Shown here piece by piece: positions 34,065 to 57,098 of a stretch of 64,000 nucleotides of DNA (positions are counted from its first letter, which is position 1; each line of letters opens with the position of its first letter). The DNA lies in assembly GCA_025359565.1 (NCBI GenBank), contig JANYFY010000016.1:1-64000 (forward strand). Reading direction: 5' to 3'. This DNA comes from Gammaproteobacteria bacterium (GTDB taxonomy: Bacteria > Pseudomonadota > Gammaproteobacteria > Steroidobacterales > Steroidobacteraceae). The translations under genes and the position numbers were made by a program. The notes under the pieces were generated by a model. It was not told the origin of the DNA. It saw only the letters and a program-made list of their open reading frames with translations, and did no database searches.

Positions 34065-35162
34065 GTGGCTGGTAATACGTTTGGCAAAATATTCACTCTA
34101 ACTACTTTTGGCGAAAGTCATGGTCCGGCGTTGGGCGGCGTGGTGGATGGTTGTCCGCCGGGTCTGGAGTTAACGGAGGCAGACTTGCAGTTAGACGTTG
34201 AACGACGTCGTTCAGGAACTTCTCAGTTTACAAGTCAGCGTCACGAATCTGATAAAGTAAAGATATTATCTGGGGTTTTTGAAGGTAAGACTACTGGAAC
34301 TCCGATCGGTATACTGGTGGAGAACGAGGATCAACGATCGCGCGACTACGACAAAATCAAGGACCGATTTCGTCCGGGCCATGCTGATTATACTTATCAG
34401 CAGAAATACGGATTTCGTGACTATCGCGGTGGGGGCCGCTCCTCCGCTCGCGAGACGGTGGTGCGCGTGGCGGCTGGTGCCATCGCGCGAAAATATTTAG
34501 CGGAGCGATTGAATATCAGCATACAGGGATTTTTGTCTCAAATCGGTTCCAAGGTGCTTGACCCGGTGGACGTAGCCAGTTGCTACGACAACCCATTTTT
34601 TTGTCCTGATCCTAGTCGCGTTAAGGAGCTGGAGGCTTTCATTTGGGAGCTTCGTGAGGCGGGTGATTCGGTGGGTGCACGGGTAACTGTGATCGCGAAA
34701 GGTGTTCCGCCTGGCTTAGGGGAACCTGTGTTTGAGCGGCTGGATGCTGACTTGGCAAGTGCAATGATGGGAATAAATGCTGTAAAAGGTGTCGAAATCG
34801 GAGCAGGTTTTGGCGCAGTGGCGCAGCGCGGTTCTGAGCATCGAGACGAGCTGACACCGCAGGGATTTAAGAGTAATCATGCGGGTGGCATATTAGGGGG
34901 TATTTCGTCTGGGCAAGATATCGTGGTTAGTATCGCGTTAAAACCCACCTCAAGTATTACCGTGCCTGGTGACACTATTGATGTGCGAGGCTATGCCACA
35001 AAAATCATCACCACTGGGCGCCACGATCCTTGTGTCGGAATCCGCGCGACGCCAATTGCTGAAGCCATGCTGGCGATTGTGCTCATGGACCATTATTTGC
35101 GGTTTCGCGCGCAATGCGCTGATGTGGTGACGACTACCCCAGTCATTACGGTGCGCAATTGA
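34065..35162 (+). CDS. aroC: Chorismate synthase
   Basis: A 365-residue FMN-dependent enzyme that ends the shikimate pathway. Signatures are [18 protein letters not shown] near the start, RPGHADYTY with [23 protein letters not shown], and [12 protein letters not shown] 34065, preceded by GGAG, is 2 nt after the prmB stop; the track upstream of it is non-homologous. The product feeds the chorismatase of the pigment cluster as well as aromatic amino acids and folate. Confidence 0.96.
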
Positions 35163-36196: not shown

Positions 36197-39196
36197 ATGA
36201 ACTTTAGACGTTTATTTGTTGGTACCCTGGGAGTAGAAATGTCTGCGATGATGCCTCGACTGGTGCTTTTGGCGTACGTGTTCTGCCCGACCTTAAGCGT
36301 GGCTTTGGGTCTCGGTGAAATTCATTTAAATTCCGCGCTCAACGAACCGTTAAGCGCGGAAATTGATCTTGTGGCGGCTGCGCCTGACGAATTAACGGCC
36401 CTGCGGGCGACTCTTGCTGGCCGCGAAGTGTTTACTCGCTACGGAATCGATCGGCCGCCGTTTTTGAATTCTTTAACTTTCAAGGTTGGCAAGGGTAAAA
36501 GTGGCCGAGAGGTGTTGCAGGTCCGGTCACTGGATGCGATTCCGGAACCGTTTGTAACATTTTTAGTGGAAGTCAATTGGGCGCGTGGACACCTCATGCG
36601 CGAGTACACGGTGTTGCTGGACCCACCGATTTACACCCCTGGCGAAGCCGCTAATAATGCGGCACCGGTAGTTATGCCAAGCGGTAAGCCTGCAGCTACA
36701 AAAGATGCGGCGACTATTGCCCCCCCGGTAGACACAGCGGTAAAACCGTTATCTTCCTCAGCGAGTAGTTATCGAGTTGCGGGCGGAGATTCCCTATCAA
36801 AAATCGCTCGTAGCTTGCAGTCTGGGTCGGCTGCCAAGATAGATCAAACCATGGTGGCTTTGTATCGAGCCAACCCCGATGCATTCGGCGGCAGCATGAA
36901 TATACTGCATAAAGGCTCGGTATTGCGTGTTCCTGGCGCCACCGAAATTGCGGCCTTGAGCCAATCGGAAGCCGTCAGCGAAGTCAATCGTGAGATTCAT
37001 CGCAGTACGTCCGGCACTCCAGGTGCGGCTAAGGGCCACCACTTACGGCTCGTCACTCCTTCTACGGGTGACGGGGCAGGCGTTGGTAATAATGTGGAAG
37101 CTCAGGCACTCAAGGATCGCGTCAAGATTTTAGAGTCTCAGCTGGCGGAATCGCATCGCTTGATTGATGTGCGTAATGCGGAACTGAGCGCATTACAACG
37201 CAAGCTAGGGGTGCCCATTACGCCGCCGGTCACAGCTCCGGTGACGCCACCGGTGGTTGCCCCCCCTGTGAAGACTCCTGAAGTGGTAAAACCGTCGGCG
37301 GTTATTAAGCCGGAAGTCCCACAGGTTCCCGTCGATACCGCAAAACCGCAATTTCCGGTTCCGGAGCCGGTACCTGCACCGGCTGTACCTAAGATCAAAG
37401 TTAAGCCTGTGGTTGCAGTGCCGGTGGAGACTGGTTCATGGATTGACTGGGTGGCCGCAAACTGGTGGTGGCCATTGGCAGCTATTGCCGCTTTACTGGC
37501 CGGCCTTGGTTTTGCATCGTTTAAAAAGCGACGTGCTGAAGGTTTTGGGGACTTACCGAATTTCGTGGAGACCGACGTAGCGGATCTACGCAACACTACG
37601 TCACGTGTTACGGCGGGTCGCAAGGGCGATGATTCTTTTCTGGTGGAAGAGTCCGGCGAACACAAACTGCCGGATGCAGCACCGCAAGGATCCGTATCGG
37701 ACGATACGATGTCCAGCGAAAGCGCGGTAAATTTAGATCAAGGTGATCCGCTGGCAGAAGCGGATTTCCATATGGCTTACGGTCTTTATGATCAAGCGTC
37801 TGATCTGGTGCGCATTGCTTTGGAGCGTGAGCCCGATCGGCGCGATTTGCGCTTAAAGCTGCTAGAAATTTATTTTGTGTGGGGTAATAAAGATCTGTTC
37901 CTGCAGACGGCAAAGACCCTTGAAGCTAGCCGTGAACATGCGCCCGCTGGCGAATGGGACAAAATTGTTATCATGGGTAAGCAAATTTGCCCGGATGAAG
38001 CGATCTTTAAGAATTCTGTCGGCGGTGGTCGCGGTGCCGGAGCGCTAGTCGATTTGAACCTTGAAGGTGGAGAGAATCGCGTTGATATCGATTTGTTTGG
38101 TGATCCGGAAGGTGAGCATAGTCGCCTTGATCATCCGTTGGCGCACGAATCGGCTGATTCGGCCGTTACCGGCGAAATGCCGGTTCTAGGGAAATCCTCG
38201 AATCTAGACTTCACTTTGGATGCGCCCGAGCGCGGTGCTGATAGTTCTCCGACTCGCGACCAGCCGATCCGCGAGGAACCCACCGTAGAATCGGAAATAG
38301 CCGATTTTTCTTTGACGCATACTGGCGAACGACGCGGTATTGCCACGAAAACGGGTTCTGAGCAAACTGCCGAAGTTTCCATAATGGATTTAGGTTTGGA
38401 CCTCGGGAGTCTTGAGGAAACCAATCATCCCGCTGATGCGCCTACGATGATTTCTGGCCTCGACGAACGTTCACGTCAGATGATGGCTGCGGCTGCAGCA
38501 AGCGCCAGCGCACGCGATGGCACGCACGCAGATGTTGTCGACGCTCATGCCAAAACGCATGCAGCAGAAAGTTCGGTTACTCATGATCAAGACCTAACTG
38601 AGCTTGAGCGCGAACTGGAAGCGTCCTTTGTGGCTGATCTCGACGTTGATCATACCGAGCTTAAAACTGCGGTCCTGAGCCCAGAATCGGCCCCGACAGT
38701 CCTGGTACCTCATCGTGTGGATGTAAACGATACTACGCGTTCTAAATTGCCAAGTTTAGCCGTCACTGATTCCGGAGCACATACGGATATCGAAGCTACT
38801 TCCAGACTGCGCGGCCTCAGCGGCGATAGTGTTGATTTGGATCTAGATAACCTTAGCAAAGCATTTGGCACGGCCGACACCGTTAGCCAACCGCAGCATG
38901 CCGAGGAATTGTTTTCCACTGAGGTGTTTGAAGCTAGTCAGCGCAGTCGCCGGGTAGACTTGGACGTGGGTGATGTGGCCGCCAAAACAGCGAACATACA
39001 AACACACAAATTGGCTATGCCGGAACTCGAGCCGGTAACCATGAGTGAAGTGGGAACTAAGCTTGATCTTGCTCGCGCCTATATGGATATGGGTGATCCA
39101 GAGGGTGCACGAAGCATTCTGGACGAAGTGGTGCACGAGGGTTCGGCGAGTCAAAAGCAAGAAGCCCAACGTCTTATCGAAACTTTGCCAGGCTGA
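36197..39196 (+). CDS. fimV: FimV/TspA family pilus-assembly hub protein
   Basis: A 999-residue FimV. The N-terminal periplasmic domain opens with LGLGEIHLNSALNEPL and is followed by a LysM-type peptidoglycan-binding domain (YRVAGGDSLSKIAR), a coiled coil, a Pro/Val-rich linker, one membrane span (WWWPLAAIAALLAGLGF, near residue 425) and an acidic cytoplasmic part. TPR-like repeats occur after the span, and the conserved C-terminal module ends in LDLARAYMDMGDPEGARSIL. It organises type IV pilus and polar proteins. The stop is in the same frame as truA, which follows at once. Confidence 0.93.
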   Translation: MNFRRLFVGTLGVEMSAMMPRLVLLAYVFCPTLSVALGLGEIHLNSALNEPLSAEIDLVAAAPDELTALRATLAGREVFTRYGIDRPPFLNSLTFKVGKGKSGREVLQVRSLDAIPEPFVTFLVEVNWARGHLMREYTVLLDPPIYTPGEAANNAAPVVMPSGKPAATKDAATIAPPVDTAVKPLSSSASSYRVAGGDSLSKIARSLQSGSAAKIDQTMVALYRANPDAFGGSMNILHKGSVLRVPGATEIAALSQSEAVSEVNREIHRSTSGTPGAAKGHHLRLVTPSTGDGAGVGNNVEAQALKDRVKILESQLAESHRLIDVRNAELSALQRKLGVPITPPVTAPVTPPVVAPPVKTPEVVKPSAVIKPEVPQVPVDTAKPQFPVPEPVPAPAVPKIKVKPVVAVPVETGSWIDWVAANWWWPLAAIAALLAGLGFASFKKRRAEGFGDLPNFVETDVADLRNTTSRVTAGRKGDDSFLVEESGEHKLPDAAPQGSVSDDTMSSESAVNLDQGDPLAEADFHMAYGLYDQASDLVRIALEREPDRRDLRLKLLEIYFVWGNKDLFLQTAKTLEASREHAPAGEWDKIVIMGKQICPDEAIFKNSVGGGRGAGALVDLNLEGGENRVDIDLFGDPEGEHSRLDHPLAHESADSAVTGEMPVLGKSSNLDFTLDAPERGADSSPTRDQPIREEPTVESEIADFSLTHTGERRGIATKTGSEQTAEVSIMDLGLDLGSLEETNHPADAPTMISGLDERSRQMMAAAAASASARDGTHADVVDAHAKTHAAESSVTHDQDLTELERELEASFVADLDVDHTELKTAVLSPESAPTVLVPHRVDVNDTTRSKLPSLAVTDSGAHTDIEATSRLRGLSGDSVDLDLDNLSKAFGTADTVSQPQHAEELFSTEVFEASQRSRRVDLDVGDVAAKTANIQTHKLAMPELEPVTMSEVGTKLDLARAYMDMGDPEGARSILDEVVHEGSASQKQEAQRLIETLPG

Positions 39197-39205
39197 GCTG
39201 CGCTT

Positions 39206-39997
39206 ATTGGACGTCTTGCCGCCCTAGTTGAGTATGACGGCAGTAATTTTGCCGGTTGGCAATCGCAAGCTCACGCGCTTTCGATTCAAGATACGGTACA
39301 GGAGGCGTTGAGTTTCGTGGCGGGTCATCCCATCACCGTGATATGTGCGGGTAGGACCGATAGTGGTGTACATGCAGTAGGACAGGTTATTCACTTCGAA
39401 ACGGCAGTGAAGCGCACATCACGCGCTTGGGTGTTAGGTGCAAACACGAAATTACCGCCTACCGTTGCGTTGCAATGGGTGGGTGATGTCTCGGGGGGAT
39501 TCCACGCTCGGCACAGCGCAACTCTGCGACACTATCATTACTGCATATTAAATTGCAGCGCGCGTTCAGCGTTGCAGCGTTTAAGATCTGCGTGGATACA
39601 CCGGCTCCTCAATGCTGACGCAATGCATCTCGCTGGCCAAGTTCTGGTCGGCGAACACAACTATTCGGCTTTTCGATCCGTCGAGTGCCAGTCGAAAACC
39701 GCCGTGCGGCGCGTGGAGCGGTTACTGGTGAAGCGCGAAGGGGATGTATTGTGGTTAGAGATCGTTGCCACCGCCTATTTGCATCATATGGTCCGTAATA
39801 TTGTCGGTACGCTTGTTAAAGTACAGAGCATGGCGGACCCTGTTGGTGCAATGGCGACAATTTTGGCTGAAGGTAGTCGGCACTTGGCAGGTGTTACTGC
39901 ACCGGCAGCGGGATTATTCTTGTGGCGTGTGGAATATCCGCCGATGTACGGTATTCCGACCCGTGAGCCAGGGTTGATGTTGCCGCCTATGTCGTGA
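39206..39997 (+). CDS. truA: tRNA pseudouridine synthase A with a non-canonical start
   Basis: TruA makes pseudouridine 38-40 in tRNA anticodon stems. The homologous N-terminus GRLAALVEYDGSNFAGWQ begins directly after the fimV stop, and the catalytic Asp (residue 52) is in AGRTDSGVHA. Between the in-frame TGA (39194-39196) and this N-terminus there is no ATG, GTG or TTG. The best candidate is ATT 39206, giving 263 residues and 8 nt from a GAG element; TTG 39308 would delete the first strand and part of the active site. Stop readthrough from fimV is the other option, as both share a frame. Confidence 0.9.
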   Translation: MGRLAALVEYDGSNFAGWQSQAHALSIQDTVQEALSFVAGHPITVICAGRTDSGVHAVGQVIHFETAVKRTSRAWVLGANTKLPPTVALQWVGDVSGGFHARHSATLRHYHYCILNCSARSALQRLRSAWIHRLLNADAMHLAGQVLVGEHNYSAFRSVECQSKTAVRRVERLLVKREGDVLWLEIVATAYLHHMVRNIVGTLVKVQSMADPVGAMATILAEGSRHLAGVTAPAAGLFLWRVEYPPMYGIPTREPGLMLPPMS

Positions 39998-40015: not shown

Positions 40016-40876
40016 ATGTCCTGGTTTGAACGAATTGTGCCTTCACGCATCAAGACCGAGCGCCGTACGCGCTCGGTTCCAGAGGGCCTTTGGACTAAAT
40101 GCCCGGTTTGCGATGCGGTTTTATATCGCGCGGAAATTGAACGAAATTTGCATGTTTGTCCCAAGTGTAGTCATCACATGCGTATCAATGGGCGCGAGCG
40201 GCTCCTTAAGTTTCTGGATCCGGGACCCAAGGAATTAGCCGCCAAAGTAGAGTCAGAAGATCCACTTAAATTTAAGGATTCGAAGCGTTATAAAGATCGG
40301 TTAGTACAGGCGCAAAAACAAACCTTGGAGCGTGATGCGCTTATTGTGATGGCGGGCAGGTTAGCCGAGTTGGAGATTGTCGCTTGTGCTTTTGAATTTC
40401 GGTTTCTCGGAGGATCAATGGGTTCCGTGGTCGGTGAGAAATTTGTGCGCGCCGTGGAGCATAGTTTGGAACATCGTATGCCATTGGTTTGTTTCGCTGC
40501 TAGTGGTGGTGCGCGAATGCAAGAAGCACTCTACTCACTGTTGCAAATGGCGAAAACAAGCGCTGCCCTGAAGCGCCTGTCGGAAGCGCGTATACCCTTT
40601 ATTTCAGTGATGACAGACCCAACTACGGGTGGAGTTTCCGCGAGTTTGGCGATGTTGGGGGATGTCAATATAGGCGAACCTAAGGCTCTTATCGGCTTCG
40701 CAGGACCTCGCGTTATTCAGCAAACTGTGCGCGAGACCTTGCCCGAAGGTTTCCAGCGCAGCGAATTTCTTTTGGAGCATGGTGCTATTGATATGATCAT
40801 TGATCGTCGTGAGTTGCGCGATCGCATCGGTGCCATATTGCGTATGCTTACGGGTAAGGGACCGGTAGCCGCTTGA
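40016..40876 (+). CDS. accD: Acetyl-CoA carboxylase carboxyltransferase subunit beta
   Basis: A 286-residue AccD. The N-terminal zinc ribbon has CPVC and CPKC pairs; the crotonase-like domain has [12 protein letters not shown] and GGARMQEA. It works with AccA to make malonyl-CoA. First of the accD-folC-dedD-cvpA-purF series common in gammaproteobacteria. Its TGA overlaps the folC TTG start. Confidence 0.96.
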
Positions 40877-44834: not shown

Positions 44835-46112
44835 ATGCTCCGTCCAGTCATGAAGTTACGTCTTTTAGTGATAGCCGCGCAGAATGAGCAACGCCTATTA
44901 ATTCAAAAGCATGTGGAAATTGAATGGCCTGATGCCGTTATTATTGAACACAGACTTGGGCTAGACCCACCTTTGGATCATGAGTTCGCTGCAAGCGGAT
45001 TTGATGCGGTGGTTGTTGTCGGCGCTGCGCCAGCAGTCGCCGTAGAAAACTTTTGTTCGGAGCTGTTGCAGCGTAGTGAATTTGCACCGATTGTGTTGAT
45101 ATTATTGCAACCCGATCCGGTACCCGCACCGTTGGTGGTACGCGGGCTACGGCGTTTGTACGGTTCAAAAATCGATCGTATGCGTTTGCTTAATGCGATT
45201 ACAGATGCGGCGCTTGAGCGCAAGAAAAACATATTGCAATTGCGAGCACGTCCCGAGTACTTGGAACGTTATCGTTTCGGAACCTTACTTATCCGCGGAC
45301 ATCGTTGCATTAAGCAGATTGGTAGCGGCGGTATGAGTAGGGTTTATCTTGCAGAAAGCGAGCGCGCAGCTACTTTGGTGGTCCTTAAGGTGTTTAGCCA
45401 AGTGCCTGATGTTTCCGAGCGCATGGTTAACTTTGATCGATTTTTACAAGAATATGAAATTGTGGCAGGTTTAAAACACGATAATATTGTACGTATTTAC
45501 GATCTGGGCGTTGCGGATGATCATGCCTACATTGCAATGGAATATTTCCCGCAGGGTGATTTGCGTACGCGGATGAAAACGGCATTGTCACCGGCGACGG
45601 CGCTGCAGTACGTGAAACAGATTGCCAGCTCTCTGGAAGCTATTCATGCCGTCGGAGTCTTACATCGCGATTTGAAACCGGCTAATGTAATGTTGCGAGC
45701 CGATGGTACCGTGTGTTTAATCGATTTCGGTTTGGCAAAGGGTAATGAGCTTGATGTCGAGTTAACCGGAACACGTGAAATTTTCGGCACTCCTTATTAT
45801 ATGAGTCCCGAGCAAGGGCACGCAGAGGCCATTGACGCTCGAAGTGATTTATACAGCTTAGGCATTATGTTTTACGAAATGCTGATTGGCCATAAACCCT
45901 ACGTAGGATCGAATGCGATGGAAGTTATTTATAAGCACAAGCGTGCTGAAGTGCCGGAGATTGCGCCGCAATTTGCAGCATTTTCGCCAGTGTTGCAGCG
46001 TATGATGGCGAAATCTCCTAGTGATCGATTCCAGTCTGCGCGCGAGTTGCTAGAAGAGCTTGATACTGTAAAAGTTGCAAGTTGCGAGGTTGTACCAGGA
46101 TTAGTGGTTTAA
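44835..46112 (+). CDS. Hanks-type Ser/Thr protein kinase with N-terminal pseudo-receiver
   Basis: A 425-residue protein without a membrane segment. Residues about 6-130 look like a receiver domain, but the strand that normally ends in the phosphorylated Asp reads VVVVGAA, so the acceptor is missing. The kinase domain is intact: glycine loop GSGGMS (163-168), Lys185, HRD (277-279), KPANV and DFG (297-299), followed by GTPYYMSPEQ. It should phosphorylate Ser/Thr in the cytoplasm; the target is unknown. ATG 44850 is an alternative start. Its end overlaps lpxH by 12 bp, convergently. Confidence 0.88.
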   Translation: MLRPVMKLRLLVIAAQNEQRLLIQKHVEIEWPDAVIIEHRLGLDPPLDHEFAASGFDAVVVVGAAPAVAVENFCSELLQRSEFAPIVLILLQPDPVPAPLVVRGLRRLYGSKIDRMRLLNAITDAALERKKNILQLRARPEYLERYRFGTLLIRGHRCIKQIGSGGMSRVYLAESERAATLVVLKVFSQVPDVSERMVNFDRFLQEYEIVAGLKHDNIVRIYDLGVADDHAYIAMEYFPQGDLRTRMKTALSPATALQYVKQIASSLEAIHAVGVLHRDLKPANVMLRADGTVCLIDFGLAKGNELDVELTGTREIFGTPYYMSPEQGHAEAIDARSDLYSLGIMFYEMLIGHKPYVGSNAMEVIYKHKRAEVPEIAPQFAAFSPVLQRMMAKSPSDRFQSARELLEELDTVKVASCEVVPGLVV

Positions 46113-56192: not shown

Positions 56193-56365
56193 AATTTTTC
56201 ATTAACGAACTGTAATTGAACTCAATATTATCACAAATCGGCTGGTTAAGCTGCTAGTTAATGACTCCCACACCGCTGAATGGATCAAAATCCTGTATAT
56301 TGCTGGCAAGTTAAGAGTGCAAAGAACGTTCATTCTTGGTTCATAATAAAAGGTTGCCTGCACTG

Positions 56366-57098
56366 ATGCAGTGGTCGAACGAAACAAACTCGTTATTGTC
56401 ATTTCCTACAGGTGGAATGGCGTTAGTCGTTGGTGCGACGGGAGGAATCGGAGCTGCCTTGCTAGGGCAATTGAGGCAAAGCAATCGTTTTGCTAAGACT
56501 ATCGGATTGTCTCGGCACGCTGAACCACGTTTGGATATTACTTCAGCGACCAGTATTGAATCCGCGGCTAGAAGTGTAGTTGGGTGCGCCTTACCGCTGC
56601 GCATAGTTATTGTCACAACTGGGCTATTGCATGGAGAAGATTTACTGCCCGAGAAAAGCTGGCGCGAACTTGATGCTTTGAAGCTTGCACGTTCCTTTGC
56701 AGTTAATACTATCGGCCCTGCTGTACTTATGAAAACTTTTTTTGCCTTTGTTGCCCCAGGACGGGAAATCAGTGTTTGCAGTGCTATCCGCACGGGTGGG
56801 GAGCATCGGGGATAACCGATTGGGCGGTTGGTATAGTTACCGCGCGTCCAAGGCTGCCTTAAACCAGATTGTACGCACTGCGGCGATTGAACTCGCGAGG
56901 TCTAGGCCGCACGCAGTTTGTGTCGCGCTACATCCTGGAACAGTAGCAACGCCCTTATCTGCGCCGTTTGCCAAGTCTCAACCGCAAGTCCAATCGCCCG
57001 AAGTCGCAGCGATGCGACTCTTAACGGTGCTTGAAAACCTAAGAAGTCACGATTCTGGCAAATTTTATGACCATCTAGGCAAGGCTGTGGATTGGTGA
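56366..57098 (+). pseudogene. Short-chain dehydrogenase/reductase broken by a +1 frameshift
   Basis: Two frames together make one SDR of C-factor/CsgA type. The first (from ATG 56366, or TTG 56336) carries the NAD(P) motif GATGGIGAAL and ends at 56815; the second continues in the next frame with SARVGS, YSYRASK (Tyr-x3-Lys) and LHPGT to 57098. The switch falls at a run of seven T (56737-56743). With six T the text reads MKTFLPLLPQDGKSVFA, which fits the family. It may be a real mutation, a sequencing error or slippage. Active-site Ser, Tyr and Lys are all intact, so the loss looks recent. Confidence 0.82.

Follow-up and report, generated by a model that had tools for sequence, protein, structure and literature searches.

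truA without a canonical start codon behind fimV: a probable AUU start

To our knowledge, few bacterial genes start on AUU or CUG. The infC gene begins with AUU in Escherichia coli and with ATC in Streptomyces (PMC5472188), and with AUA in Staphylococcus aureus (PMC13009471). The pcnB gene of E. coli has an AUU start that is said to limit its expression (Binns and Masters 2002, by its title as cited in PMC13009471), and sigR of Streptomyces starts on GTC and is repressed by IF3 (PMC5472188). In S. aureus, the non-canonical starts of cvfC1 (AUU) and ccpN (AUA) are kept among relatives, and the AUU and AUA starts of this species carry extended Shine-Dalgarno (SD) sequences (PMC13009471).

Restart of ribosomes that have just terminated on an upstream gene is also relevant here. 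Ribosomes of E. coli have been observed to restart without an SD sequence where stop and start lie close together, and additional IF3 reduces such restart; restart efficiency drops twofold already at 4 nt and is below 3% at 40 nt (PMC2268962). The part played by IF3 in translational coupling is disputed (PMC12548453). The restart sites described in the available parts of these two sources are AUG or other canonical codons, except in reporters used with mutant initiator tRNA and in cells without ribosome recycling factor. Reinitiation at non-canonical starts as described in PMC4648390 was considered as a parallel and set aside, since it concerns a eukaryotic system.

The window analysed here is a stretch of 64,000 nt from a genome of 3.14 Mb (33 contigs, 98.35% complete). 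It carries truA close behind fimV, with the following features at the joint of the two genes:

36197..39196, + strand: gene for the polar landmark protein FimV/HubP (fimV/hubP), intact up to the conserved C-terminus (TIGR03504 FimV_Cterm, residues 954-997 of 999)
39194..39196, + strand: fimV stop TGA, in the same frame as truA, 9 nt ahead of the ATT
39197..39205, + strand: spacer of 9 nt between the fimV stop and the ATT
39206..39208, + strand: ATT, proposed truA start codon, 24 bases ahead of the E-Y-D-G motif (-24), where 92 of 169 genomes have a canonical start; predicted strand 5-13 lies right behind it
39206..39997, + strand: truA, tRNA pseudouridine(38-40) synthase, 263 aa with the ATT start (TIGR00071, PDB 1dj0)
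39308..39310, + strand: TTG, first canonical in-frame start codon in truA, rejected as the start

FimV ends in ...QEAQRLIETLPG at the TGA, and its terminal LPG is common to the genus members shown in the alignment. Behind this stop, the truA frame reads GCT GCG CTT ATT (39206) GGA CGT CTT GCC GCC CTA GTT and then GAG TAT GAC GGC for E-Y-D-G. Among the 11 codons that lie between the TGA and this motif, the ATT is the only one of a type described as a start codon in bacteria. Reading in frame from the fimV stop bore out the observation in the earlier note that truA has no ATG, GTG or TTG, as none occurs from the TGA at 39194-39196 to the TTG at 39308. The statement that truA shares the fimV frame and is separated from it by TGA and three codons also fits, the ATT being the fourth codon after the TGA. 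This situation is unusual in the window: from 77 listed stop-to-stop ORFs we picked 49 likely genes, and the first ATG, GTG or TTG is preceded by 37 codons in truA and by at most 18 in each of the other 48.

We propose the AUU at 39206, read as fMet, as the start of TruA translation. This is the best explanation and, on the evidence of sequence comparisons and a structure model, a probable one. The product would be complete and begin M-G-R-L-A-A-L-V-E-Y-D-G. Most initiation on truA would come from ribosomes that finish FimV at the UGA at 39194 and restart 9 nt downstream, which would allow a weak start codon to be tolerated; TruA would then be made at a low level and be sensitive to initiation factor IF3. 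We infer that such a restart is the likely mechanism behind truA initiation. The distance of 9 nt between the fimV stop and the ATT is short, as in termination-reinitiation pairs; the fall in restart reported in E. coli at 4 nt and at 40 nt weighs against the proposal.

The comparison with described systems shows likenesses and differences. The window's own genome has an infC gene (L144, G000:C7:406516-407022) with an ATC start behind a GGAGGA Shine-Dalgarno sequence, and no canonical codon separates its in-frame stop from the conserved N-terminus; thus, the classical gene for a non-canonical start has one in this organism, too. Like infC, truA would be a conserved gene with a non-canonical start codon. 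In contrast to truA, with its weak SD and its position close behind fimV, infC has a strong SD in this genome and autoregulation through IF3. The anti-SD energy is -2.5 kcal/mol for the truA ATT versus -9.3 for the infC ATC, and no strong SD precedes the former. However, the 25 window genes scored have a median of -2.5 kcal/mol as well, and hence the weak SD of truA is not special. The pcnB gene resembles truA in that AUU would again start a gene for an enzyme acting on RNA, but it is another gene, and the limit on expression is one described for pcnB. The sigR gene, too, has close neighbours in its operon and a non-canonical start, which had been missed by annotation. However, the odd codon of sigR-rsrA is on the upstream gene and that of fimV-truA would be on the downstream one, where control by IF3 is a conjecture. 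The cvfC1 and ccpN genes have AUU and AUA starts as proposed for truA, but these come with extended SD sequences. The truA site is devoid of an extended SD, which counts against the AUU start, and the odd codon of truA is not the same in all relatives. As for termination-reinitiation coupling, the fimV-truA pair shares with the described cases the short stop-to-start distance and the weak downstream SD (PMC2268962, PMC12548453).

The protein and its predicted fold also bear on the position of the start. The window TruA scores 193.6 bits against TIGR00071 (cut-off 142.85), and E. coli TruA (PDB 1dj0) matches it with E=1.3e-70, aligned over query residues 6-257. It contains GRTDSGVHA, with eight of the nine columns invariant across 24 sequences; we take this motif to be the holder of the catalytic Asp. 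The structure predicted by AF2 from 24 sequences has a mean pLDDT of 89.5 and a pTM of 0.86. In our numbering of the ORF, the ATT is residue 4 and the TTG at 39308 is residue 38. The first strand in the AF2 model comprises residues 5-13 and would thus begin one residue past the ATT codon.

We examined the truA starts of related genomes. Within the genus, truA was found in 22 of 23 genomes (G011 gave no match); the joint is N-masked in G014, leaving 21 readable genomes, the window included. In 13 of these 21, the fimV stop is followed at a distance of 1 or 2 nt by an in-frame GTG, and G005 has a TTG. No in-frame ATG was present within 90 nt ahead of the motif in any of the 21. The survey was widened to 125 of the 175 other genomes of the family with a truA match, and to 23 other members of the order (140 stretches and 8 further loci); the fimV stop was recognised in 123/125 and 19/23, respectively. 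A canonical truA start is missing in 3/20 readable genus mates (G007, G013 and G017), 3/125 other family members (G167, G026 and G072) and 1/23 other members of the order (G042). Overall, it is absent in 8 of 169 genomes, 4/21 in the genus versus 4/148 outside (Fisher p=0.009), and the candidate starts in these genomes are CTG or ATT.

Position -24 from the motif is a canonical start in 92 of the 169 genomes (ATG in 72, GTG in 13 and TTG in 7). Four of the eight genomes without a canonical start have a near-cognate codon there, namely ATT in the window and G042, and CTG in G026 and G072. ATT, ATC, ATA or CTG thus occupies -24 in 4/8 start-less genomes versus 2/69 with a canonical start elsewhere (Fisher p=0.0007; 3/7 and p=0.005 without the window), in a test that was devised after the pattern was seen and on genomes that are related. 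Of the three options raised in the earlier note (an ATT start, readthrough from fimV and a missed frameshift), the ATT start is the best supported, as its position is the one most often used to start truA and agrees with the predicted first strand.

The start-less genomes differ in their arrangement. The three genus mates (loci L005, L004 and L007 for G007, G013 and G017, respectively) have no near-cognate codon at -24 and share a candidate CTG at -42; truA is out of the fimV frame in G013 and G017, and G007 has two tandem fimV stops. In G042 (L147), from another family of the order, ATC ATT ATT occupies -27 to -21, and G056, of the same genus as G042, has an ATG at the corresponding position. 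In G072 (L188), an AAGGG element precedes two CTG codons at -24 and -21. Restart behind fimV is consistent with five of these genomes (G026, G167, G007, G013 and G017), in which the candidate start either overlaps the stop of fimV or follows it at 8-11 nt, but not with G042 and G072, with fimV stops 81 and 127 nt ahead of the motif, respectively. Tight coupling is hence not general, and coupling alone does not explain the weak truA starts. In a tree of truA from the genus, the four members without a canonical start account for 3 changes; only 1 is forced by branches with good support, and equally low numbers came from 72 of 500 shuffles, so the number of origins of the loss is uncertain.

Neighbouring genes served as controls. 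Canonical starts were found for accD in 21/21 anchored genus genomes (G018 was not anchored), for folC in 22/22 (leaving out a weak match in G011) and for asd in 18/18 anchored of 19 scanned (G018 again not anchored; G005 and G006 without a match, G008 with a fragment and G011 with a weak match were left out). For folC and asd, the nearest canonical start is at most 36 nt ahead of the anchor. Within the genus, a canonical start is therefore missing for truA in 4/21 genomes versus 0/61 anchored neighbour-gene starts (Fisher p=0.0034), or 3/20 versus 0/58 without the window (p=0.015). In the wider set, accD has a canonical start in 33 anchored of 36 loci. In the window, asd and folC have TTG starts that overlap the upstream stop as TTGA (35159-35162 and 40873-40876). 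The aroC gene, suspected as a second gene without a start, has a GTG at 34065.

Could the odd codon be an artefact of assembly or sequencing, with a canonical truA start in the real genome and a wrong or missing base at the joint? The ATT is one base from a canonical codon, and one other gene in the window is interrupted at a T7 run (56737), which may reflect either an indel error or a genuine mutation. However, no base occurs more than twice in a row in 39187-39221, and among the 84 runs of at least six bases in the window, which were not each inspected, a gene break was noticed only at this T7. An indel in particular is opposed by the gapless alignment of the joint with that of G024, from another genus of the family, which has TGA, 9 nt and then TTG at -24. 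The canonical start is also absent in seven other genomes, and the sister species G013 and G017 show the same arrangement. We therefore consider such an error quite unlikely. The missed frameshift suggested earlier is limited to a few bases, because FimV is intact up to its conserved end and the homology of TruA sets in shortly behind the ATT; this leaves room for a base error within them. Decay of truA after a recent loss of its start codon, with little or no TruA made, is very unlikely. Deletion strains of truA are viable in E. coli and two Pseudomonas species (PMC9481147), and of 106 columns that do not vary in the rest of the genus, the window TruA deviates at 7, the highest value among the 21 genomes (next is G004, with 6/105). 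Against this, the reading frame is intact over its full length, as are the GRTDSGVHA motif and the family score, and in a wider set of 25 it deviates at only 3 of 72 columns, below G024, G029 and G031 (5 or 6). The protein is 71% identical to that of G021 and conserved, with a dN of 0.217; dS is saturated, and thus no dN/dS ratio is given. The window copy is also the sole truA match in its genome.

Readthrough of the UGA into a FimV-TruA fusion was the other option of the earlier note, prompted by the shared frame and the few codons behind the TGA, and we regard it as most improbable. Reported UGA readthrough reaches ~12% in an E. coli reporter but 1/2500 in Pseudomonas aeruginosa (PMC9481147). 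FimV stops at its conserved C-terminus, and truA is out of the fimV frame in five of the seven other start-less genomes (G013, G017, G167, G026 and G072); G007 would need two tandem stops to be read, and only G042 would allow readthrough simply. No RNA structure was found at the joint in one fold (stability versus shuffles, z 1.12) or by Rfam, which returned no match. A start at the TTG at 39308, as a gene caller limited to ATG, GTG and TTG would annotate it, is hardly credible. The resulting protein of 229 aa still scores above the TIGR00071 cut-off (155.6 vs 142.85 bits), but it would lose residues 1-37, including strand 5-13, 8 of the 13 residues of helix 30-42 and E12, Y13, G15, G20, W21, Q31 and V34, which are invariant in 24 aligned sequences. 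It would also leave 111 nt between fimV and truA. The TTG was rejected on account of the strand and these seven residues.

If TruA is indeed translated from the AUU, truA would be a new addition to the genes with non-canonical starts, next to infC, pcnB, sigR, cvfC1 and ccpN. Among titles and abstract beginnings in the open-licence literature, we found no mention of a non-canonical start for truA. The unusual part is that, judging from the sequences, canonical truA starts have been lost in several related genomes. A gene caller limited to ATG, GTG and TTG would cut the N-terminus of TruA, including its first strand. In the genomes examined, the truA start losses with intact neighbours form a natural series for asking whether restart from an upstream gene relaxes the choice of start codon.

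In E. coli, TruA lowers stop readthrough and frameshifting (PMC9481147), and a feedback reading is for this reason worth stating. Conceivably, although we find it doubtful, truA may have been repeatedly selected in this order for very weak starts (ATT, CTG), so that the level of a fidelity enzyme would be set by start-codon stringency and IF3 in an infC-like loop, the losses probably having several origins and restart from fimV carrying truA through them.

Two further loci of the window deserve mention. At 56315-57098, a short-chain dehydrogenase-like gene is split at the T7 run (56737) into two overlapping frames. The first half has no Pfam match and has relatives in four genomes of the genus; the second matches adh_short with 26.1 bits, just below the cut-off of 26.6. 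The gene is either a real pseudogene or the product of an indel error. Directly behind purF, at 44835-46112, lies an ORF that, judged from its translation, resembles a Ser/Thr protein kinase.
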